A DNA stretch of 64,000 bases from Chloroflexota bacterium (GTDB taxonomy: Bacteria; Chloroflexota; Limnocylindria; Limnocylindrales; CSP1-4). The notes beneath the pieces are model-generated. The model saw only the letters and a list, made by a program, of their open reading frames with translations, did not search any database and had not been told where the DNA came from. Location of the stretch: contig JADMIG010000001.1 in NCBI GenBank assembly GCA_015478725.1, positions 1-64,000 on the forward strand, read 5' to 3'. A program made the translations under genes and the position numbers. Shown piece after piece: positions 44,173 to 56,612 of this stretch; position 1 is the stretch's first letter, and every line of letters starts with the position of its first letter.

Positions 44173-44271
44173 GCCGCGCCGGGTGCCTGCCCGGCGCCGA
44201 CCGGATGGCGTCGATTCGCGGTCGGCTGGTATCATGCCGGCCGGTCCGACGGAGTGCCGCCGAGCCGCCGC

Positions 44272-44348
44272 GCCGCATTCGTCTAGAGGCCCAGGACACC
44301 GCCCTCTCAAGGCGGAGACCACCGGTTCGAATCCGGTATGCGGTACCA
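44272..44348 (+). tRNA. tRNA-Glu (anticodon CUC)
   Basis: Acceptor GCCGCAT pairs with ATGCGGT (G-U at the end). The anticodon stem CCGCC/GGCGG encloses CTCTCAA, anticodon CTC. The T-arm is CCGGTTCGAATCCGG, and ACCA is encoded at the 3' end (44345-44348). A -10 TATCAT lies at 44230-44235. The MNT/HEPN, CBASS and helicase island begins immediately downstream. Confidence 0.96.
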
Positions 44349-44421
44349 AATTCGCCATTTCTGGCACGATCCACGTTCGGATCGGGCCTTTCGTTGGCCT
44401 CGTCCGGGGCCGGGCCAGCCG

Positions 44422-44459
44422 GTGGACAGATGTGCGCCTCGGGGTGTACATATGTCCAC
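44422..44459 (+). promoter_or_regulatory. Inverted-repeat operator just before the MNT/HEPN pair
   Basis: GTGGACAGATGT (44422-44433) and ACATATGTCCAC (44448-44459) are 11/12 complementary with a 14-nt spacer. The right arm ends directly before the GTG start at 44460. This placement suits autorepression by the winged-helix part of the nucleotidyltransferase. Confidence 0.6.
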
Positions 44460-45038
44460 GTGCAGGCTGACATCGCGCTATTTGGCGAGTCCAAGGTCCG
44501 GCGCCAGATCCTCGAGCGGTTCTTCTCGCGGCCGGGGGTTGTTCGCCATGTCCGCGAGCTCGCCCGGGAGCTCGACCGCTCGCCGACGATCGTCGGGGCC
44601 GAGCTCGACCGGCTCGAGCGGACCGGCGTCCTGACTTCCGAACGGATCGGCCGGGCGCGTCGCTACCGGGTCGACGACGCTTCGCCGATCGCGGCCGAGA
44701 TCCGCTCGCTCGTACGCAAGACGATCGGCATCGAGGCCCGCCTACGCGCGGCGCTCGCGGATCTCGATGGCGTCGAGGAGGGATTCCTGTACGGCTCGTA
44801 CGCGCGGGGCGACGAGCGGGCGACGAGCGACCTTGACCTGTTCGTCATCGGAGCGGTCGACCAGGTGGCGCTGACCGAACGACTCGCCGAGCTCGAGCGC
44901 GAGCTCGATCGCGACGTCAACGTCACGACCCACGAGCGCGCAGAGCTGGAGCGGCTGCGCGCCGCAGGCGACCGGTTCATCGAGACCGTCCTCGCCGGGC
45001 CGCGCATCCAGCTTGTCCCGACCACGGTGGGTGGCTGA
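44460..45038 (+). CDS. MNT-type nucleotidyltransferase antitoxin with N-terminal winged helix
   Basis: A 192-residue protein. An N-terminal winged-helix region (RRQILERFFSRPGVVRHVRE, TIVGAELDRLERTGVL) is followed by a minimal nucleotidyltransferase: FLYGSYARGDERATSDLDLF, with the G-S and D-x-D motif, and DVNVTTHE. In MNT/HEPN systems this enzyme blocks the HEPN toxin, often by adenylylating it. GTG 44460 is the probable start because the operator ends there; an ATG at 44430 lies inside the operator. It is followed 3 nt later by the HEPN gene. Confidence 0.85.
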   Translation: MQADIALFGESKVRRQILERFFSRPGVVRHVRELARELDRSPTIVGAELDRLERTGVLTSERIGRARRYRVDDASPIAAEIRSLVRKTIGIEARLRAALADLDGVEEGFLYGSYARGDERATSDLDLFVIGAVDQVALTERLAELERELDRDVNVTTHERAELERLRAAGDRFIETVLAGPRIQLVPTTVGG

Positions 45039-45041
45039 CCG

Positions 45042-45500
45042 ATGCCAGCGCCTACCCTCGCAGAACTCGTCCGAGCGGGCCTGCTCCAGCGCAAGCCGCC
45101 CGACACCGGCCGCGTCGCGGGCTGGCTGGACCGCTCGCGCAAGGATCTCGCGCTCGCCAAAGATGTGCTTGCGGGTGTCGATCGCGATCGCGCGATGGCC
45201 GTCGCCTACGAGGCCGGATACCGCTGCTGCGCAGGCCTCCTCGACTTGGCCGGCTACCGCGTGACCAGCCAGCCTGGTCACCACCGGGCGGCGATCGACG
45301 CGACCACCGAACTCGTCGGCGACGCCGAGCGGGCACGCCTGCGCCGCCTCGATCGGGCGCGCCGCTTCCGCAACGACGCGCTCTACGGCGACGTCGCGAC
45401 GGCCGGCGCAGGTGAGTTTGCTCAGCTGCTCCGCGATGTCGCCTGGCTGCTCGAGCGACTCGCGACCGAGCACGAACGCGCCGCGCCCCCGGGACGGTAG
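45042..45500 (+). CDS. HEPN-domain toxin of the MNT/HEPN pair
   Basis: A 152-residue all-helical HEPN protein. The N-terminal helix GWLDRSRKDLALAKDVLAG and AVAYEAGYRCCAGLLDLAGY match HEPN partners of MNT enzymes. The usual catalytic R-x4-H motif appears as RRFRNDALYGD: Arg is present but the His position is Tyr. The RNA-cleaving activity may therefore be altered. Some family members show this Tyr, and it may be the adenylylated residue. The pair lies at the tRNA-Glu end of the defence island. Confidence 0.8.
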   Translation: MPAPTLAELVRAGLLQRKPPDTGRVAGWLDRSRKDLALAKDVLAGVDRDRAMAVAYEAGYRCCAGLLDLAGYRVTSQPGHHRAAIDATTELVGDAERARLRRLDRARRFRNDALYGDVATAGAGEFAQLLRDVAWLLERLATEHERAAPPGR

Positions 45501-45706: not shown

Positions 45707-46207
45707 TCAAGCGGCGCGATCGAGAGGCGCGCGCTGCTCGATCTTCGGGACGTCCCGATGCACTTCCTCGCCGAGCCACTCGCCTGTCTCCCGGAAGTAG
45801 AGCTCCTTGAAGAGGTGCGCCACCGCTGTGTCGACGAGCTTGAGCACACCATCTGCTCGGTTCCACTGGCGGTTCGGTGGGTCCTTCGGGTACCACATGC
45901 AGAGTCGGTTGGCGCCGAAGGTGTGCCGCATCGGTCCGTGCCAGCCCTCGGCGGTCACCTGCACGGCGCGTCGCTCGTCAAGCTCGATCCGCAGGACGTG
46001 TCGCTCGTCGTAGGCCGGCACGGAGACCGGGACCAGCCAGATGTACGCCTGGAGTCGGAAGTTGGTCGAGACCCGCTCGAACGCGTAGTGATCGCCCAGC
46101 CCTCCCTCGAGGCGCGCGAGGCGATGAACGCGCTCGGCGAGCGCGACTGGCTTGCGCGGACCCAGCGGCCCGCGGCGGCGATCCGAGGGCCTACTCGTGG
46201 TCGGCAC
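45707..46207 (-). CDS. Putative CBASS E2-like (ubiquitin-conjugating-fold) accessory protein
   Basis: A 166-residue protein ending the CBASS operon. Central blocks WHGPMRHTFGANRLCMWYP and NRQWNRADGVLKLVDTAVAH, then ETGEWLGEEVHRD, resemble the standalone E2-like proteins of short type II CBASS. The Cys in RLCM is the candidate conjugation cysteine. The GTG start at 46207 lies inside the last codons of the CD-NTase gene (17-nt overlap). The frame is open upstream only as antisense shadow. Family assignment is from motif memory and context; a profile search is needed. Confidence 0.6.
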   Translation of the reverse strand: MPTTSRPSDRRRGPLGPRKPVALAERVHRLARLEGGLGDHYAFERVSTNFRLQAYIWLVPVSVPAYDERHVLRIELDERRAVQVTAEGWHGPMRHTFGANRLCMWYPKDPPNRQWNRADGVLKLVDTAVAHLFKELYFRETGEWLGEEVHRDVPKIEQRAPLDRAA

Positions 46208-47354
46208 CGAACGATCGGCCCGGGACGATCGGGCGCCCGCCGCCCGAGACGATCGCGCCGCCCGTGATGCCGGCCGGGCCCCTGCGAAGTGCCGCGGCGA
46301 CCGACTCCTTGAACTCGTCCCTCGGCGGCTTCGGGAACTCCTCGCCAAACAGGTCGTGCCACAGCTGGACGCTGGTGGCGTTGGCTTCGGCGTTCAGCGC
46401 CTCGCGTGCGGCACCCGCCGCCGTCGCGACCAGCCGCCAGAACCTCGCGAACTGCTCGGGCGTGATCTTCTTGAAGACGTCGTGCTCAGGCACGCCGCGG
46501 TCGGGCAGGATCGGCTTCTGTTCGGTCTGGACGTCGATCCGGTAGTTGTCGCGGATCGCCTCGAGCGCCAGCGTCACGCCCTCGGCTACCGACCCGACTC
46601 CGTCGGGGCAGGTGTCGCCGACCAGGTGCTCCAGCGGATAGCCCTTCGGGTACTTCCCATCGGGGTTCTCCTTCCGCCACCACTTGATGGCGCGGACGAC
46701 GTTGATGTAGTGGCCGTCCATGTTGTCGTTCTTCTCATGGGTCCAACGGATCTGCTCGAGCGGGTGGGTCCGCTCCCAGCGGCCGAGGTCGCGCGACGGG
46801 ATCAGGAGCGGATCGCGCTGCCACTCCTCGAGCCGGGCGCTCTTGGCGATGCGGTCGAAGGCCTCCCGGAAGTTCAGGGGCTCCGGCGCGGGCAGGCCGG
46901 TGCGGGCGGCCTTGAACGTCGGGTCGACCGACTCAAAGAACTCCTGTTGGACCTTCGACGGCGCCGCGGTGACGACGAGGTCGAGGGTGACGTCCTTGCC
47001 GGCCGGCGTGATCTTGATCGCGCGGTCCTGGCGCTCCCACTGGCCCGGGTAGTACTTCTCGAGGAACGGCGTGAAGCGGGCAACGACGAGGTCCGGCGTG
47101 TAGCGGATCGGGTCAAGCGTCGTGACCACGACGACATCGACGTCGGCGTGCGGGTCCTCGCCGTTGGGCTTGGTGCCGGTGTCCCGGCGATAGCTGCCCT
47201 GGAGGAAGGTCGAGACGATGATGTCGCGGAGATCCGCGTCGGCCAGCAACAGGCCGCGCAGGCGCAGGTGCTCGTCCCGGCACTGGTTGGCGAGCTCCTC
47301 CGGCAGACGGACGTTCTTCAGAAAGCGCTCGAATGCGGGTGTCGCGGTGGTCAC
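46191..47354 (-). CDS. CBASS CD-NTase (cyclic oligonucleotide synthase)
   Basis: A 387-residue cGAS/DncV-like nucleotidyltransferase. The catalytic G-S is at 53-54 (FLQGSYRRD), the D-x-D pair at Asp71/Asp73 (HADVDVVVV) and the third Asp at 125 (DVTLDLVV). NMDGHYINVVRAIKWWRKE is the helical SMODS region. On phage infection it would make a cyclic oligonucleotide that activates the Cap4 effector. It starts 15 nt after cap4. The tail GGRPIVPGRSFG, then ADHE, is a possible site for conjugation by the E2-like protein (inference). Confidence 0.88.
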   Translation of the reverse strand: MTTATPAFERFLKNVRLPEELANQCRDEHLRLRGLLLADADLRDIIVSTFLQGSYRRDTGTKPNGEDPHADVDVVVVTTLDPIRYTPDLVVARFTPFLEKYYPGQWERQDRAIKITPAGKDVTLDLVVTAAPSKVQQEFFESVDPTFKAARTGLPAPEPLNFREAFDRIAKSARLEEWQRDPLLIPSRDLGRWERTHPLEQIRWTHEKNDNMDGHYINVVRAIKWWRKENPDGKYPKGYPLEHLVGDTCPDGVGSVAEGVTLALEAIRDNYRIDVQTEQKPILPDRGVPEHDVFKKITPEQFARFWRLVATAAGAAREALNAEANATSVQLWHDLFGEEFPKPPRDEFKESVAAALRRGPAGITGGAIVSGGGRPIVPGRSFGADHE

Positions 47355-47369: not shown

Positions 47370-48875
47370 TTAGGCACTCAGCGGCAGATGGAACGCCGGC
47401 GTGTAGCCGCCGGGCGTGCGGTTGTCGAAGTCGAACTCGTAGGTGGTCGAGCGGCCGAAGGCTCGGCCCTCGTGCCCGATCAGGTACGCGAGCGCCACCG
47501 GGACCGAGGCGAAGACGTGGATCGGGGCAGCCCGCTCCTCCGTCGTCCGGCGCGCCTCGACGATCTGGCCGAGGTCACGCGCGAGGGCCCAGGCGTGATC
47601 GCCGTCACGCACCGAGGTGGGTCCGGTGCCGCCCGCGATGGTCAGCACCAGCATCCGTCCGATCCCTTGGGAGTGCTTGTCGGCGTAGAGCCGGACGTCC
47701 TCGGCCGTCGGGCGGGTTACCTCGATTGCGATCGCCAGACCAGGGCCGTCGCCGAGCTGCTCCTCGTGAACCGTCCACAGCTCGCCCGCAACAACCGCGC
47801 CCGTCGGGCGCCAGACCACCCGACCATCGCTCTGGACGGGCGCCACGGTGTCGTTCTTCCCGAGTAGGTGGCCTGCCAGGTAGGCGATCGAGAGGTGGGC
47901 GTCGAGGTACAGGTTGTACATACGGTTCCCGCTGATCCGTTCGTCGAGGAACGAGCGGATACGAGGAGCGAGGTCGCGATCCCAGTCGACCTCCGCGGCC
48001 TTGTACCGGCCGTGGAAGTCCGGGACGAGGTCGAGCGTCGCGGCGTGGTCCTCGAGGTTGATCGCGCCCCGCGAGAAGCTCTTGATCGCGATGTCGCGCG
48101 GATCCGACTCAGCCCGGAGCGGCCGGCCCCGCCACAGCTTCGCCTTCTCCAGGAATGGCCGCAGGGACGTCGCCCGGTGCTCTCGTGGGCCGCCCTGGAT
48201 GAAGCGCCGGACCATCGAGATGTGCGGGTTGTCCAGCTCCCCATCGGACGGCGGAGCGATGCCGGCAAGGGCGAGAGCGTAGCCGAGGTCCTGCTTCATG
48301 CGGTGCATCGGCACGTTGTCCCGGATCCGGAGGTGGCGCAGCACGCGCTCTAGGTGCTCATCGCTGACGCCGCCGAGATCGGCCCGCCACTGCTCCCGGA
48401 CCTTCCCCGTCTCCGACTTCGGCCCGTCGACGAACAGCTTGTTCGTGATGATCTCGCCGTCGTTGTTGCTGACCAGCGTCCGCAGGATGTCGTCCGGGTC
48501 GAAGCGCCAGGCCGTAACAAGGGTCAGGCGCTTGGCGATGTCGCCGCCCTTCGTGGCCGCGTACGCCTTGTCCAGGAGGGAGTGCGTGGTCGCGCCGATG
48601 AACGACGGCGTCGACAGATCGAGCGCCCGGATTGTCTCTCGGCCGTCGACGTGGTACTTGAGCTGGTAATGGTCGACCTCGATGAGTCGGTTGTCGTGGC
48701 TGTACAGCGGGACGCGGTTGACCGCCACGACATCGTCGAACGCCTGGATTATCGGGTGCTCGACGTAGACAACCTCGGCCGGGTCGTCCTCCATGAAGAG
48801 GCGGGCGGCCTGGATCCAGAAGTAGAGGTGCTGGTAATCCTCGCCGAGAAGGATCGGGACGACGCTCGGAGTCAT
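47370..48875 (-). CDS. cap4: CBASS effector: Cap4-like nuclease fused to SAVED domain
   Basis: A 501-residue effector. The N-terminal DUF4297-type nuclease has GEDYQHLYFW, acidic residues in AFDDVV (47-48) and a Q-L-K (71-73) motif, as in Cap4 DNA endonucleases. The C-terminal third is a SAVED ligand-binding domain (GPGLAIAIEVTRPTAEDV, MLVLTIAGGTG, VALAYLIGHEGRAF, YEFDFDNR). Binding of a cyclic oligonucleotide should trigger DNA degradation and cell death. It is the first gene of the operon. Its ATG lies at the predicted transcription start, so it is leaderless. Confidence 0.85.
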   Translation of the reverse strand: MTPSVVPILLGEDYQHLYFWIQAARLFMEDDPAEVVYVEHPIIQAFDDVVAVNRVPLYSHDNRLIEVDHYQLKYHVDGRETIRALDLSTPSFIGATTHSLLDKAYAATKGGDIAKRLTLVTAWRFDPDDILRTLVSNNDGEIITNKLFVDGPKSETGKVREQWRADLGGVSDEHLERVLRHLRIRDNVPMHRMKQDLGYALALAGIAPPSDGELDNPHISMVRRFIQGGPREHRATSLRPFLEKAKLWRGRPLRAESDPRDIAIKSFSRGAINLEDHAATLDLVPDFHGRYKAAEVDWDRDLAPRIRSFLDERISGNRMYNLYLDAHLSIAYLAGHLLGKNDTVAPVQSDGRVVWRPTGAVVAGELWTVHEEQLGDGPGLAIAIEVTRPTAEDVRLYADKHSQGIGRMLVLTIAGGTGPTSVRDGDHAWALARDLGQIVEARRTTEERAAPIHVFASVPVALAYLIGHEGRAFGRSTTYEFDFDNRTPGGYTPAFHLPLSA

Positions 48876-48881
48876 AGCCTC

Positions 48882-48922
48882 ATACTATTCAACTTGACGG
48901 ACATCGTCAAATCGACTAGTCT
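48882..48922. promoter_or_regulatory. Back-to-back promoter pair sharing one palindromic operator (CBASS / HTH-ImmA)
   Basis: A palindrome TTGACG-GACAT-CGTCAA lies at 48894-48910. On the plus strand TTGACG, a 17-nt spacer and TAGTCT (48917-48922) form a promoter toward the HTH-ImmA gene. On the minus strand the other arm reads TTGACG, a 17-nt spacer, then TAGTAT (48887-48882), a promoter toward cap4. One site therefore covers both -35 boxes. The minus start falls at or next to the cap4 ATG. Confidence 0.8.
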
Positions 48923-48951
48923 AGCAGCGTATTCATCAGGGAGACGGACTC

Positions 48952-50625: not shown

Positions 50626-50984
50626 GGGCGGTCGAGCCCATCGAGTCAGTCGCGTCCTTCCCGACCCACCGTCGGGGCACCCGCGTACGGGATCCAACGG
50701 GGCGCAGGAGGGATCTACGCAGCCTCGACATCAGGGACGTCTGCTCCATCGATCGGGATTCGGATACTTCTGGCATCCGCGTGCCCAACTCGTGTACTCG
50801 GTACACGAGCACATCGGGATCATCGTCATCCCGAGGACGAAGGCCATCGCACTGGCCGCCATCGTCAACGCAGCAGAGGGTGCTCGGCGGAGACGGGGCC
50901 CTCGCGTGGGCAACTCAAGCTGTCACTCGGGCCGGTACATTGGGTGGCGTAACCCGAGCTTCGGGATCGGAAGGGCAGGGGGCA
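50626..50984. other. Intergenic region with palindromes upstream of the helicase
   Basis: About 360 bases without a supported gene. CTCGTGTAC-TCG-GTACACGAG (50789-50809) is a perfect 9-bp palindrome with a 3-nt centre. TCGGGAT/ATCCCGA follows near 50814-50834. They may be a terminator and an operator for the next gene. No clear promoter hexamers were found. Confidence 0.5.
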
Positions 50985-53900
50985 TTGACAAGCCCAGATC
51001 AGGCTGAACTGAGCCGCCGCGCGAGGAACCTCGTCGAGTTCCTCCGGCGGCTCACGCAGATGAGGACCGTACCCGTCCGCGACGTGGGCGAGTACGAGGA
51101 GGTCGTCTGGTTCGCCTCCGTGCCAGACATGTCCGGAAGCCATTGCGTCACGCACGAAGGACATACCGCCGACGCCGATTGGATCGCGATCGAGCGTCCA
51201 CGGATCCCGCAACGGCCTCAGGCCCCGGCAACGCTGTGGGGCTGGCTCGTTGACGACGCGGAGAGCACCGCCGAGCCCGCCCTGCGCGACCTCGACGAAG
51301 GCGAGGACCTGCCTGACGACGTCGTCGCGGCATACGACGAGTATCTCGACGCCTGGCGCGACTGGACCGCCAGGTATGGCCCCCGAGTTCCCCTCCTGGC
51401 GCTCTACGAGCGCCTGTTCCGGATCAAGCAGCAGGCCGATCAACTCGGTGAGCGATTCGAGACCGTGGTCGCCGCGGGCCTGGCGCTGGTTCCGGGAGGA
51501 GAGCGTGGTCGAATTCGCCGCCACCTCGTGACGATGCGGGCGGAGGTCCACTACGAGCCGCAGACGGGGCGGATCACGGTGCGGCCGGCGCCGGACGGCA
51601 TCGACGTCCAGTTCGAGGACGACATGCTGGACCCGGCGCTCGTCCCGCGTAAGGAGCTCCGCGAGCCGGCGCATGCAGCCCTGGTCGCGGCCGGCACGGA
51701 GATCTGGGCGGGCACGACCCTCGTTGACGCCCTCACGACGTGGACGCAGGCGATGCGCCACGACGCGGTCTTTGACGCTGGGATCGACGCCCCGGCAATG
51801 CCGTCGGAGGGCGTGCTCGTCGCGCTCGCGCCGGCGCTCATCCTTCGCAAGCGAACGACGCGATCGCTCCTCGCGTTCTACCGGAAGGTGGACGAGCAGC
51901 TCGAAGCCGGGACGCTGGACCCGGGCCTCGTCGCGGGACTCGTGGCCGAGCCCGATGGATCGTCATCGACCGGCGCCGGGGCAGCGGCTGTCGCCGACAC
52001 GGACGAGCTGTACTTCCCGAAGCCGTACAACGCCGAGCAGCTCGATGTCCTCCGCAGGCTCACGACCTCCGATGGGGTGGTGGTGGTCGGGCCGCCCGGT
52101 ACCGGGAAGTCGCACACGATCGCCAACCTCGTCTCGCATCTGCTCGCGACGGGCCAACGCGTGCTGGTCACGAGCCACACGAGTCGCGCGCTCGAGGTCC
52201 TGCTGGACAAGCTGCCCGATGAGATCCGCTCGCTCTCCGTCAGCCTCGTCGGCGACGGACGGGCGGGGATGCGCGAGCTTCAGCGCTCGGTCAGCGCGCT
52301 CGTCAACCGCTCTACGGACCCCGAGTGGGAGACGCCGAAGATCGACCACCGGATCGCCCGGTTCCGGCAGCTGCGGGAGCGAGCGCACGAGGAGCGCCGG
52401 CGCCACCTCGCGGCGATCCGAGAGGTCCGTGAGGGGGACGCGAAGGTCCACGACCCCGGCCTGGGCGGCTACCGGGGCACCCTGTCGCAGATCGCCGCGG
52501 AGATCGCGGAGCAGCGCGACGCCCTGGGTTGGGCGACCGGCATGGCCGGCGATGCGCCTACCCTCACCAATGCCGAGGCGACGGAGCTGGCAGCCTTCGC
52601 CACCTCGATCTCCCAGGAGATCGAGGCCCGCTGCCGCGTGCCGCTCCCCGATCTGCCCACGGTCGAGACATTCACCGAGCTGTGCTCGCGGATCGCCGAC
52701 CTCGAGGTAGCGGTCGCAGGTGCGGCCGAGAGCCGCCAGCTACCGTCGGCGGCGGCGTTGACCGCCGCGACCCACGCCGACCGGATGACCCTCGCCGCGG
52801 CGATCGATCGCCTGCTGCAGGCGCGGGCAACGGTGGCCGTCGCCGAGCCCTGGGAGCTGCCCGCGTTCGAGGCCGCTCTCGGCGGACCGGTCGCGAGGTG
52901 GCGGGAGCGCAAGTCCCGCACCGTCGAGTGGATCGCGACGCTGCGGGAGACGGCGGCGACCGCGGACGGCGTACTCGTCACCGGGGCATTGGCCGTTGAG
53001 CCCATCGCGGCGCGCGCCGCGATCGATGCGCTGCTGGCTCACCTGCAAGAGGGCCGCGGGCTGGGATTCGGCCCGTTCAAGCCGAGGGTCGTGAAGGACG
53101 CGCGACTGGCGCTGGGGACGGTGCGCATCGACGGTCTGGAGCCCGTCTCCGTGCCAGCGCTGCAGCGGCTCCGCACCTGGATCGACGCCCGTGTCGCCGC
53201 GGATCGAGCCCGCGCGGCCTGGTCCCAGGAGCGCCGCCTGACGGACGACTCTGCGTACAGCGTGCTGGCCAACCTCGAAGAGCTCCTGCCGGCGCTCGAT
53301 CGCGTAGTGGCTGCCGAGGGATGCCGGGCCGACGTGGTGGCGGTGGCGGCGAGAATGCCGGGCCTGCCGTTGCCCCCATGGGCCGATACAGAGGGCTGGG
53401 TGGCGCTTGGTCGGGCGGCACGGGCCGTCGATGCCGGGGCGGCACTCGAGGCCGCCGTCGGAGAGCTCGCAGGCCACAGAGATCGGGTCGAGGGATCGGT
53501 GACCGACGAGCCTGGCGATCTGGTCCCGATCGTCCTCGTGGCCATCGATGCCCGCGACGCCAAGGCCTTCGCGACAGCCCGGGCCGCCGTCGAGGAGCGC
53601 TGGCAGGAAGCGGGCCGCGTGCGGCGGCGCGATGAGCTCATGGACCGGCTCATGTCGCAGACGCCGGAGCCCACGCTCGCGCAATTGGCCACGGACGGGT
53701 CGTGGACTGAGCGCCTTGCCCGCTACGAGGCCGCGTTCTGGTGGGCGAAGGCCGAGGCGTGGCTCCACGACATGCTGGACGCGTCGTCGGGTGGCGCCGT
53801 CAGTCGCGTGGCGATCCTGAACGATGAGATCCGCGGCCTAACGGGCTCGATCGGGGAGCACCTCGCATGGCGGAACTGCCTCACAGCGCTGACCCTCGGC

Positions 53901-56612
53901 CAGCGCATGCACTTGACGCTCTACCAGAAGGCCATGAAGAAGTATGGCCAGGGCAAGGGCAAGTACGCGCCGACCTATCTGGCCGATGCCCAGCGGGAGC
54001 TCGAGCAGTGCCGAGCTGCCGTGCCGGCCTGGATCATGCCGACCTACCGAGTCGCCGAGTCGCTCTCGCCGGATCGAGATGCGTTCGACGTGGTCATCGT
54101 CGACGAGGCGAGCCAGTCCGGGGTCGATGCCCTGTTCCTGTGGTGGCTGGGCAAGAAGGTCGTGATCGTCGGGGACGATGAGCAGATCAGTCCGGACGCG
54201 GTAGGCCTCGAGCTCGCGCCAGTGCTGGCGATCAAGAAGGAGCTGCTCGGCGATCAGCCCATCGGGAGCGTGATCGCGCCCACCACCAGCCTGTTCGACC
54301 TCGGCGACATCGCGTTCACCGGCAACCGCACGTACCTGCGCGAGCACTTCCGGTGCATGCCGGAGATCATCGCCTTCTCGAACCGCATCTCCTATGCCGA
54401 CTCGCCCCTGGAGCCCCTGCGCCAGTTCGGAGCCGACCGCCTCCCGCCCCTCCGCTCGAGCCACGTCGCCGGCGCCACCCGGTCGGTCGGGGTGCGCGGC
54501 AACCTCAACCGCGACGAGGCGCACGAGATGGCGGAGGCGATCGTCGCCTGCATCGCCGATCCCGCGTACGCGGACCGGTCGATGGGCGTCATCAGCCTCA
54601 CCGGCGAGCATCAGGCCAGGTACGTGGAGCGCCTGCTCCTGGAGCGGATCGGGCCTGATGAGATGCTCAGCCGCCGGATCAAGTGCGGCGACGCGTCCGC
54701 CTTCCAGGGCGATGAGCGCGACGTCATGTTCCTGGGAATGGTGGCGGCACCGACGGACAAGGGAAACCGGCTTCCAGCGCAGACGAGTGACGTGATCCGC
54801 CGCCGGTTCAATGTCTCCGCGAGTCGCGCACGGGACCAGATGTGGCTATTCCACTCCGTGACGCAGGCGGACCTGAACCCGGACTGCCTGCGGTGGAAGC
54901 TGCTGGAGCACTTCCTCCATCCGGAGATGCCTGATCCGGACCCGGACCTCGGGATCGTCACGGAGCGGGATCGACATCAGGCCTTCGACAGCCTGTTCGA
55001 GCAGCGTGTCTATCTGCGGATCAAGAACCGCGGCTATCGGGTCCGCCCACAGGTACCCGCGTATGGCTACCGGATCGACCTCGTCGTCACAGGCGGCGAG
55101 AACCGGCTCGCGGTGGAGTGCGACGGCGACGAGTGGCACGGCGCCGAGCAGTTCGAGAAGGACCTCGCGCGCCAGCAGGACCTCGAGCGCGTCGGCTGGC
55201 GGTTCGTGCGGATCCGCGAGAGCGAGTTCTACCTGGACCCGGAGGCCGCGCTCCGCTCGCTGTGGCTGAAGCTCGGCGAGGTCGGGATTCGGCCATTCGG
55301 AGAGCTCGGGGTGGCCGCCCTGGAGCCGGGTGCCGTTGCGGTCGACAGCAGCGACCTGGAGGCGGTCGTTGAGGCGCTGCTGGATCCGTTCGAGGAGCCG
55401 GCCGAGGGAGCAGGTCCGCCCGAGCAGCCGACGCCGCCGCTCCCGCCTGAGCCCCTTCCGGTACCGGCTCCCGCGCCGGCGCCAACCCCGCAGCCCGTCG
55501 CTCCCATCGCCCCCGCCGTGCTCGGCAAGGTGCCCGCCTATCGAGCCTGGGCGGGCTCGGACGTCTCGGACCCCCGGTATGCGAGGCAGGGTGACCTCGT
55601 GGCCATCCTGCTCGACGTGGTCGCCGCCGAAGGTCCGGTGCTCGCCCGGCGCGCCTATCGCCTGATCCTGCAGGCGGCCGGGTTCCATCGGCTGGTCCAC
55701 ACCGTCGTCTCGCCGCTGAACAAGGCGGCGGTTCGAGCCGAGCGCGAAGGGCGGCTGATCGCGGTGCCCTCGGGGATCGGCAGCTCGCTCGCCGAGCGCG
55801 TGCTGCGCCTGCCCGATCAGCCGCAGGTCGTCGTTCGGAAGCGCGGCGCCCGGGACCTCGAGGAGATCCCGCCGTCCGAGGTCCAGGCGGTTGCTCGCCA
55901 GCTCCGTGGCTCGACGGTCATGCCGTCGGATCGCGAGCTGCAGCGGGCGATCCTCGCGTTCTACGACCGCACCTCGCTCACGGCTGCGGCGAGCACCTAC
56001 ATCGAGAAATGCCTGCGGGTCACTGTCGCGCTGGGGCCTGAGCCGGTCCAGCAGCGGCCGATCTGGGACAAGCCCACGGCAACCGCGGCAGGGACGACTC
56101 CACCGGCGCGCCCCACAGAGCCTCCGACGAGGCCTGTCGCGGCACCGGTGCGACCGGCCGGTCCGGAGTTCAAGAAGGTCCTCGCCGACACGATCGCCCG
56201 GGCCCAGGTGCTCTCCACTGGCGCCAGGCATCGCCTTGCGACCGAGTGGCTGGACGAGGAGAACGAGCCGTCTCGTGCCAAGGTGACCAGCGCCGCCGGC
56301 GCGGCTGGCGCTCCGCGCGATTGGAGCACCGTCGCGCGGATTGTCTCGAGCACCCTCGCCGATTGGCCCGCCTCCGCGCGTGGGGCTGTCGTGGATGCCG
56401 CCTTCGCGTTGACCGCGAGCAGCGCCCCAGAGGGGGCGGCCGAGCTGCTCGTGCCGTGGCGAGCCGCACTCCGCCCGGGGAACACGGCCACCCCCGCGCC
56501 TCGAGATGAACCCGGCGGCACGCTGTGTCCGCACGGACATGTAATGGGCACCTGCCCCCTCATCGTCTGCAAGGGCCACCCCCTCGGGGGCATGGCCTTC
56601 GACGAGAACTGA
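50985..56612 (+). CDS. Very large SF1 helicase with Vsr-like nuclease and DUF3320-like region (Hhe-like defence protein)
   Basis: A 1,875-residue protein. SF1 motor: Walker A VVGPPGTGKSHTIANL (near residue 368), IVDEASQSGVDALF (near 1040), VVIVGDDEQISPD, REHFRCMPEII and NVSASRARDQMW. A Vsr-like PD-(D/E)xK nuclease follows (about 1330-1430: GYRIDLVVTG, AVECDGDEWHG, GWRFVRIRESEFY). A DUF3320-like region lies after a Pro-rich linker (VLARRAYRLILQAAGF). The C-terminus has CPHGHVMGTCPLIVCKGH. Helicase-Vsr proteins of this layout include the anti-phage Hhe type. TTG 50985 has AGGGGG upstream; an upstream GTG is possible. Confidence 0.82.
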   Translation: MTSPDQAELSRRARNLVEFLRRLTQMRTVPVRDVGEYEEVVWFASVPDMSGSHCVTHEGHTADADWIAIERPRIPQRPQAPATLWGWLVDDAESTAEPALRDLDEGEDLPDDVVAAYDEYLDAWRDWTARYGPRVPLLALYERLFRIKQQADQLGERFETVVAAGLALVPGGERGRIRRHLVTMRAEVHYEPQTGRITVRPAPDGIDVQFEDDMLDPALVPRKELREPAHAALVAAGTEIWAGTTLVDALTTWTQAMRHDAVFDAGIDAPAMPSEGVLVALAPALILRKRTTRSLLAFYRKVDEQLEAGTLDPGLVAGLVAEPDGSSSTGAGAAAVADTDELYFPKPYNAEQLDVLRRLTTSDGVVVVGPPGTGKSHTIANLVSHLLATGQRVLVTSHTSRALEVLLDKLPDEIRSLSVSLVGDGRAGMRELQRSVSALVNRSTDPEWETPKIDHRIARFRQLRERAHEERRRHLAAIREVREGDAKVHDPGLGGYRGTLSQIAAEIAEQRDALGWATGMAGDAPTLTNAEATELAAFATSISQEIEARCRVPLPDLPTVETFTELCSRIADLEVAVAGAAESRQLPSAAALTAATHADRMTLAAAIDRLLQARATVAVAEPWELPAFEAALGGPVARWRERKSRTVEWIATLRETAATADGVLVTGALAVEPIAARAAIDALLAHLQEGRGLGFGPFKPRVVKDARLALGTVRIDGLEPVSVPALQRLRTWIDARVAADRARAAWSQERRLTDDSAYSVLANLEELLPALDRVVAAEGCRADVVAVAARMPGLPLPPWADTEGWVALGRAARAVDAGAALEAAVGELAGHRDRVEGSVTDEPGDLVPIVLVAIDARDAKAFATARAAVEERWQEAGRVRRRDELMDRLMSQTPEPTLAQLATDGSWTERLARYEAAFWWAKAEAWLHDMLDASSGGAVSRVAILNDEIRGLTGSIGEHLAWRNCLTALTLGQRMHLTLYQKAMKKYGQGKGKYAPTYLADAQRELEQCRAAVPAWIMPTYRVAESLSPDRDAFDVVIVDEASQSGVDALFLWWLGKKVVIVGDDEQISPDAVGLELAPVLAIKKELLGDQPIGSVIAPTTSLFDLGDIAFTGNRTYLREHFRCMPEIIAFSNRISYADSPLEPLRQFGADRLPPLRSSHVAGATRSVGVRGNLNRDEAHEMAEAIVACIADPAYADRSMGVISLTGEHQARYVERLLLERIGPDEMLSRRIKCGDASAFQGDERDVMFLGMVAAPTDKGNRLPAQTSDVIRRRFNVSASRARDQMWLFHSVTQADLNPDCLRWKLLEHFLHPEMPDPDPDLGIVTERDRHQAFDSLFEQRVYLRIKNRGYRVRPQVPAYGYRIDLVVTGGENRLAVECDGDEWHGAEQFEKDLARQQDLERVGWRFVRIRESEFYLDPEAALRSLWLKLGEVGIRPFGELGVAALEPGAVAVDSSDLEAVVEALLDPFEEPAEGAGPPEQPTPPLPPEPLPVPAPAPAPTPQPVAPIAPAVLGKVPAYRAWAGSDVSDPRYARQGDLVAILLDVVAAEGPVLARRAYRLILQAAGFHRLVHTVVSPLNKAAVRAEREGRLIAVPSGIGSSLAERVLRLPDQPQVVVRKRGARDLEEIPPSEVQAVARQLRGSTVMPSDRELQRAILAFYDRTSLTAAASTYIEKCLRVTVALGPEPVQQRPIWDKPTATAAGTTPPARPTEPPTRPVAAPVRPAGPEFKKVLADTIARAQVLSTGARHRLATEWLDEENEPSRAKVTSAAGAAGAPRDWSTVARIVSSTLADWPASARGAVVDAAFALTASSAPEGAAELLVPWRAALRPGNTATPAPRDEPGGTLCPHGHVMGTCPLIVCKGHPLGGMAFDEN

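Follow-up and report, generated by a model that had tools for sequence, protein, structure and literature searches.

We identified a putative 41-bp bidirectional promoter between a CBASS operon and a divergent gene pair that encodes an HTH-ImmA protein and a PIN-fold nuclease. Comparison of related loci suggests that its central palindrome is probably the operator of a portable cassette, made up of the bidirectional promoter, the HTH-ImmA gene and the PIN gene, which would repress both its own operon and the immune operon to its left. The features of the window, that is, the whole 64-kb stretch of DNA that was analysed, are listed in Table 1 together with those of related loci (L numbers). The leftward operon encodes both a CD-NTase cyclase and a ligand-sensing SAVED effector, which identifies it as a CBASS. 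The Cap4, CD-NTase and E2 genes all diverge from the HTH-ImmA gene, so that the regulator adjoins and faces the CBASS.

Table 1. Positions of the promoter element, the neighbouring genes and the accessory features of related loci.
Feature	Position	Strand	Remarks
Putative bidirectional promoter/operator, 41 bp	48882..48922	.	two overlapping opposed sigma70-type promoters with one common palindrome
Left arm, rightward -35 box TTGACG	48894..48899	+	read directly; conserved in six loci
Core GACAT, 5 nt	48900..48904	.	length fixed, letters free (six-locus identity)
Right arm, leftward -35 box TTGACG (CGTCAA on +)	48905..48910	-	read directly; conserved in six loci
Rightward -10 box TAGTCT	48917..48922	+	TA[G/C]T[C/G]T in 6/6 loci
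Leftward -10 box TAGTAT, where the homologous unit begins on the left	48882..48887	-	TAG[T/G]AT in 6/6 loci
HTH-ImmA/IrrE fusion, 381 aa	48952..50097	+	PADLOC RmrA 2.5e-32, capP 6.7e-21, capH 2.6e-11
PIN-fold nuclease, putative toxin, 174 aa	50101..50625	+	invariant D12, E46, D84, D102; 3ix7 sequence match
Cap4-type CBASS effector (nuclease + SAVED)	47370..48875	-	SAVED_PDDEXK 2.3e-118; start codon at expected leftward +1
CD-NTase, CBASS oligonucleotide cyclase	46191..47354	-	5.9e-122
E2-like CBASS accessory protein	45707..46190	-	E2 1.3e-19; exact start uncertain
Small-protein genes	L039:4374-4538, L042:6957-7124, L044:3655-3840, L047:8333-8518, L045:349-513, L069:3001-3177, L070:3001-3165		
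Copies of the 120-133 nt element	L039:4587-4706, L042:6789-6908, L043:2300-2419, L044:3908-4035, L047:8144-8271, L045:572-704		

The palindrome TTGACG-GACAT-CGTCAA occupies positions 48894-48910, and each of its arms lies 17 nt from the corresponding -10 box. The preliminary description of this DNA had reported the same palindrome, boxes, spacings, coordinates and letters, and all of these agree with our direct reading. The element thus has -35 and -10 hexamers about 17 nt apart on both strands that are constrained in relatives, as is characteristic of a bidirectional sigma70-type promoter. Within the window this exact palindrome is unique, and the 3.45-Mb genome has two copies of it; the second (C26:19257) has no HTH gene nearby and no fitting -10 boxes by eye, and was set aside. 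To quantify the arrangement, we compared 41 nt with TTGACA/TATAAT on both strands (maximum score 24). Positions 48882-48922 score 17/24, the runner-up in the window scores 13, and a score of 16 was not attained in any of 500 Markov shuffles of the intergenic sequence. This score was defined after the feature had been seen, which makes the genome comparison the real, independent test. Palindrome statistics with two mismatches allowed were at chance within the window alone, and comparison between genomes was therefore used instead. The end of the leftward -10 box is 7 nt from the A of the cap4 ATG (48875), so that the predicted leftward transcript is leaderless or nearly so; the rightward transcript, predicted to start near 48929, would have a leader of ~23 nt.

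Relatives of the HTH-ImmA protein were drawn from genomes of the same family, and the six close loci, which are not independent lineages, encode proteins of 79-100% identity. Their alignment is free of gaps through the element. Pairwise identity among the six is 0.94 for each arm, 0.94 for the leftward -10 box and 0.89 for the rightward one, compared to 0.28 for the 5-nt core and 0.51 for four-fold sites in the HTH-ImmA gene (0.33 when the genome studied here, G000, is compared with the most distant locus). Since the arms and both -10 boxes are conserved above the core and the four-fold sites, these data suggest that both promoters are constrained and that the core matters by its length only. 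The preliminary description had proposed a comparison of the intergenic spacer in related genomes as a check, and its outcome supports the element in all six. Beyond these loci, G006, with an HTH-ImmA protein that is 53% identical, has the arms TTGACA / TTGTCG and again a geometry score of 17. No such palindrome or geometry was found near the start of the G050 gene (~55% identical).

The HTH-ImmA protein consists of an N-terminal Cro/C1 HTH, an M78 metallopeptidase domain with the motif HELGH and, in the predicted model, a C-terminal three-helix domain. The linker after the HTH carries an invariant ARFRS (residues 77-81), and residues 312-341 are flexible or disordered in the model. HELGH and the downstream glutamate region are invariant in all eight HTH-ImmA sequences, indicating an intact HExxH peptidase site. 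The HTH fold matches CapH (7t5u) with 44% identity over 61 residues. A fold search with the full model returned nothing at E 0.001, the best matches being the IrrE, ComR, DdrO and C-protein folds, and the NCBIfam spr1629 antitoxin match (5.3e-23) is below its curated cut-off. The PIN gene begins 3 nt past the HTH-ImmA stop and is directly downstream in 8/8 loci; its product was modelled with a pLDDT of 94.5, and the structural matches are PIN/VapC folds. By sequence family, the two proteins would form a toxin-antitoxin-like pair of the RosmerTA/Xre-COG2856 type with a putatively toxic PIN partner, which the C-terminal three-helix domain could hold. The HTH-ImmA regulator gene described previously is the first of two genes in a toxin-antitoxin-like cassette whose PIN partner had gone unmentioned. 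The accompanying proposal that a peptidase cleaves the repressor does not hold in that form: the locus has no separate repressor but a single polypeptide that contains both HTH and protease, so that release would have to occur by self-cleavage, by cleavage in trans between copies, or allosterically.

Next, we considered whose promoter the element is. CBASS lies on the left in only three of the eight loci (G000, contig 47 of G096, and G093). In G009, whose HTH-ImmA protein is 95% identical to that of G000, Cap4 is absent and the leftward genes encode a small protein, a multi-ubiquitin protein and a DUF6791-ThiF protein. Contig 149 of G096 resembles G009, and genome G096 thus carries both arrangements; the leftward operons of G009 and of this contig gave Multi_ubiq, DUF6791-ThiF and ThiF matches, with a JAB match below cut-off. 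In G073 the leftward side has only a weakly ubiquitin-like protein (weak YukD match), and in G006 it holds the same small protein as in G009 together with a DUF1883-like protein. All close loci with sequence on that side have a leftward operon of defence type. To the left of the leftward -10 box, G000 and G009 are identical at 9/40 positions, which is chance level, despite their 95% identical HTH-ImmA proteins. As homology ends at this box, we take it as the start of the homologous unit and assign the two-way promoter to the HTH-ImmA/PIN cassette; the immune operon appears to be exchangeable cargo. In G093, the CBASS operon starts ~150 nt to the left of the element, beyond a sequence that is unrelated, so that the leftward promoter need not be the sole CBASS promoter in that genome.

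The two G096 cassettes, on contigs 47 and 149 (L040 and L042), have near-identical operators and stand beside the CBASS and the multi-ubiquitin operon, respectively, which makes cross-regulation between them possible. The CBASS of G093 (L041:1600-3425) encodes a full E1-E2 protein of the Cap2 type, and those of G000 and G096 have a short E2-like protein only.

The indirect evidence says that the cassette does regulate CBASS transcription. The cap4 start codon falls at the expected +1 in G000 and in G096 contig 47, and the leftward -10 box is as constrained as the arms, with letters of its own. Among 177 genomes of the class, all four Cap4 relatives are faced by an HTH/ImmA regulator: in three this is the cassette, and in the fourth, G072 (L067:2999-5543), a CBASS consisting of a 40% identical Cap4, a CD-NTase and Cap2 is faced by a 123-aa HTH gene and a separate ImmA-type peptidase gene, the canonical CapH + CapP pair. 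Control of CBASS by CapH + CapP is known (PMC13373217). The preliminary description had the palindrome controlling the promoters of CBASS and its regulator. The divergent position of the HTH-ImmA gene does match that of CapH/CapP, but the element is not specific to CBASS and persists with HTH-ImmA and PIN where CBASS is absent.

That persistence, together with the ~150-nt distance of CBASS in G093, would also fit a palindrome that serves only as the autoregulatory operator of the HTH-ImmA/PIN pair. In that case CBASS would be next to it by chance, within a defence island, and the symmetry of the operator would have produced the leftward -10 box. Both outer boxes have TAGT in common and could be the outer half-sites of a longer operator. 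We nevertheless regard this explanation as unlikely: the leftward box equals the arms in identity and reads TAGnAT, as opposed to the rightward TAnTnT; further points against it are the exact placement of the cap4 ATG at the expected +1 in two genomes, the defence-type operons on the left of the close loci and the CapH + CapP genes in the equivalent position in G072. Less probable again is that the cassette acts as an addiction guard, in which the PIN toxin is set free when the immune operon is lost or fails, or when a phage inhibits the regulator, and control of CBASS transcription is secondary. CreTA, which guards CRISPR-Cas, is a conceptual precedent (PMC10097628), the RosmerTA/Xre-COG2856 toxin-antitoxin architecture is known (PMC10440598, PMC2701414), the PIN partner is constant, and the cassette closely adjoins alternative immune operons. 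However, nothing in the sequences indicates that the PIN protein is repressed or neutralised by any product of CBASS or of the ubiquitin-like operons, and a common promoter alone does not create such a dependence.

Adjacency of the HTH gene is no proof of binding, and the palindrome might be bound by another regulator or be an unbound coincidence of two promoters. Evidence from distant relatives makes this very improbable. On a plasmid of Methylomagnum ishizawai, the gene of a 46% identical HTH-ImmA protein precedes one for a PIN protein (Pfam PIN 1.1e-4, slightly below cut-off), and just upstream of the HTH-ImmA gene stands ATTTCGACA-AAAAC-TGTCGAAAT, with identical 5-nt spacing and related arms. 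The recognition helices are near-identical (SRGAYRNLEQG in Methylomagnum, SRAAYRNLETG in the window protein). The motif is absent from relatives with different recognition helices (cyanobacterial plasmids, G097 and G043). The arm letters thus appear to track the recognition helix across relatives, which favours the HTH-ImmA protein as the binder; a Cro/C1-type HTH protein would be a natural one for such a palindrome. Moreover, the genome's only other exact palindrome lies away from HTH genes, which argues for a local, dedicated regulator.

On our preferred reading, that of a cassette operator acting in both directions, the most likely binder of TTGACG-N5-CGTCAA is an HTH-ImmA dimer, which would cover both -35 boxes and thereby repress the regulator + PIN operon and the leftward immune operon simultaneously. 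In this genome the leftward target would be CBASS, and in relatives it would be a ubiquitin-like or other operon. CapP and PprI are both activated by ssDNA (PMC10904395), and by analogy a stress signal such as ssDNA from damage or phage attack may activate the metallopeptidase domain, which would then inactivate the HTH part or detach it from DNA. Loss or release of the HTH part would switch on both directions together, possibly releasing the PIN nuclease. Self-processing of the HTH-ImmA protein, its cleavage site and its binding of PIN are hypothetical parts of this mechanism. A broader reading, which we put forward tentatively, is that a toxin-antitoxin module has become a portable self-regulated cassette whose two-way promoter docks interchangeable abortive immune operons, such that one proteolytic event induces both the operon and PIN. 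Immune systems whose action kills the cell that carries them must be tightly controlled. The known controllers CapH/CapP, CapW and CapK/CapS are dedicated repressors; the present locus suggests that this role can also be taken by a complete toxin-antitoxin pair with a common promoter, which can be swapped between unrelated immune operons. The prediction is that the 41-bp element alone confers HTH-ImmA control on any gene to its left.

The closest known counterparts are the CapH + CapP regulators of CBASS (Lau et al. 2022), as described in PMC13373217 and PMC10233336; according to the former, CapH + CapP and CapW control CBASS and also accompany Bub operons. The cassette resembles CapH + CapP in its CapH-type HTH, its CapP-type M78/ImmA peptidase, its divergent position beside CBASS and its link with ubiquitin-like operons. 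Unlike this two-gene system, it is a 381-aa fusion in 8/8 loci, with an extra C-terminal domain and PIN downstream; it has no separate cleavable repressor, and a single palindrome gives both -35 boxes. No separate CapH gene, and hence no two-gene CapH/CapP arrangement, was found beside this CBASS.

HTH-ImmA fusions beside PIN toxins were predicted to be toxin-antitoxin systems in 2009 (PMC2701414), and such pairs are placed within the RosmerTA region of the toxin-antitoxin network (PMC10440598). The cassette has in common with RosmerTA/Xre-COG2856 an HTH-ImmA fusion as antitoxin/repressor and a PIN-fold nuclease gene immediately after it. Those are self-contained toxin-antitoxin or phage-defence pairs, whereas a two-way promoter with CBASS or ubiquitin-like operons is not described in PMC10440598 or PMC2701414. 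CapK + CapS and VapKSC (PMC13373217) are likewise DNA-damage regulators beside exchangeable immune operons, and the toxin-antitoxin relative uses PIN (VapC). They employ kinase/STAS chemistry in place of the HTH-metallopeptidase, and have either a regulator (CapKS) or a toxin (VapKSC), where the present cassette has both. In ImmR/ImmA (ICEBs1) and DdrO/PprI(IrrE) (Deinococcus), a Cro-type repressor is likewise freed by an M78 metallopeptidase upon DNA damage, but these are two proteins that control element excision or DNA repair and have no PIN partner. A fused HTH-ImmA/PIN cassette with one palindromic two-way promoter common with interchangeable immune operons appears to be new, as far as the literature examined shows.

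The cassette was found in 7 of 107 genomes of the family, one of which has two copies, and elsewhere only as distant plasmid relatives. A profile of the HTH-ImmA protein matched 2/400 genomes sampled across the phylum at E 1e-30, which suggests that the close group is restricted to a single family. Chloroflexi metagenome assemblies are the source of the loci whose HTH-ImmA proteins are 80-95% identical, and viral contigs yielded only distant relatives of the protein (24-31% identical).

Two further features accompany the cassette in relatives. The first leftward gene can be that of a widespread small protein of ~55-62 aa (MATNxNRHDGHREGAV-GRSQF...DVK-D--FKGVRRE), which is unnamed in Pfam. Its gene opens a CBASS operon opposite a WYL (CapW-type) regulator on a plasmid of Burkholderia pyrrocinia, and it again faces a WYL gene on a plasmid of Alteromonas. 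The other feature is an element of 120-133 nt with a long, sequence-variable hairpin and conserved flanks, located ~100-230 nt upstream of HTH-ImmA genes in the stretch that separates the promoter from the first leftward gene. A model search found no further copies in the 107 family genomes, and the element is absent from the window. It had no Rfam match at gathering level, and an Rfam search of the related loci gave tRNAs only. An RNA structure was considered for this element and set aside, as the consensus fold of the transcribed strand has almost no covariation support.

The window contains further defence-related genes around the locus. At 44205-45500, a nucleotidyltransferase gene and a small HEPN-like gene (PADLOC PDC-M05A/B) form a pair of the MNT-HEPN type that ends near the CBASS. 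Downstream of the PIN gene, positions 50781-56612 encode a 1943-aa protein with AAA helicase and MTES_1575 nuclease domains (PADLOC PDC-S37/Hhe), a candidate defence gene.
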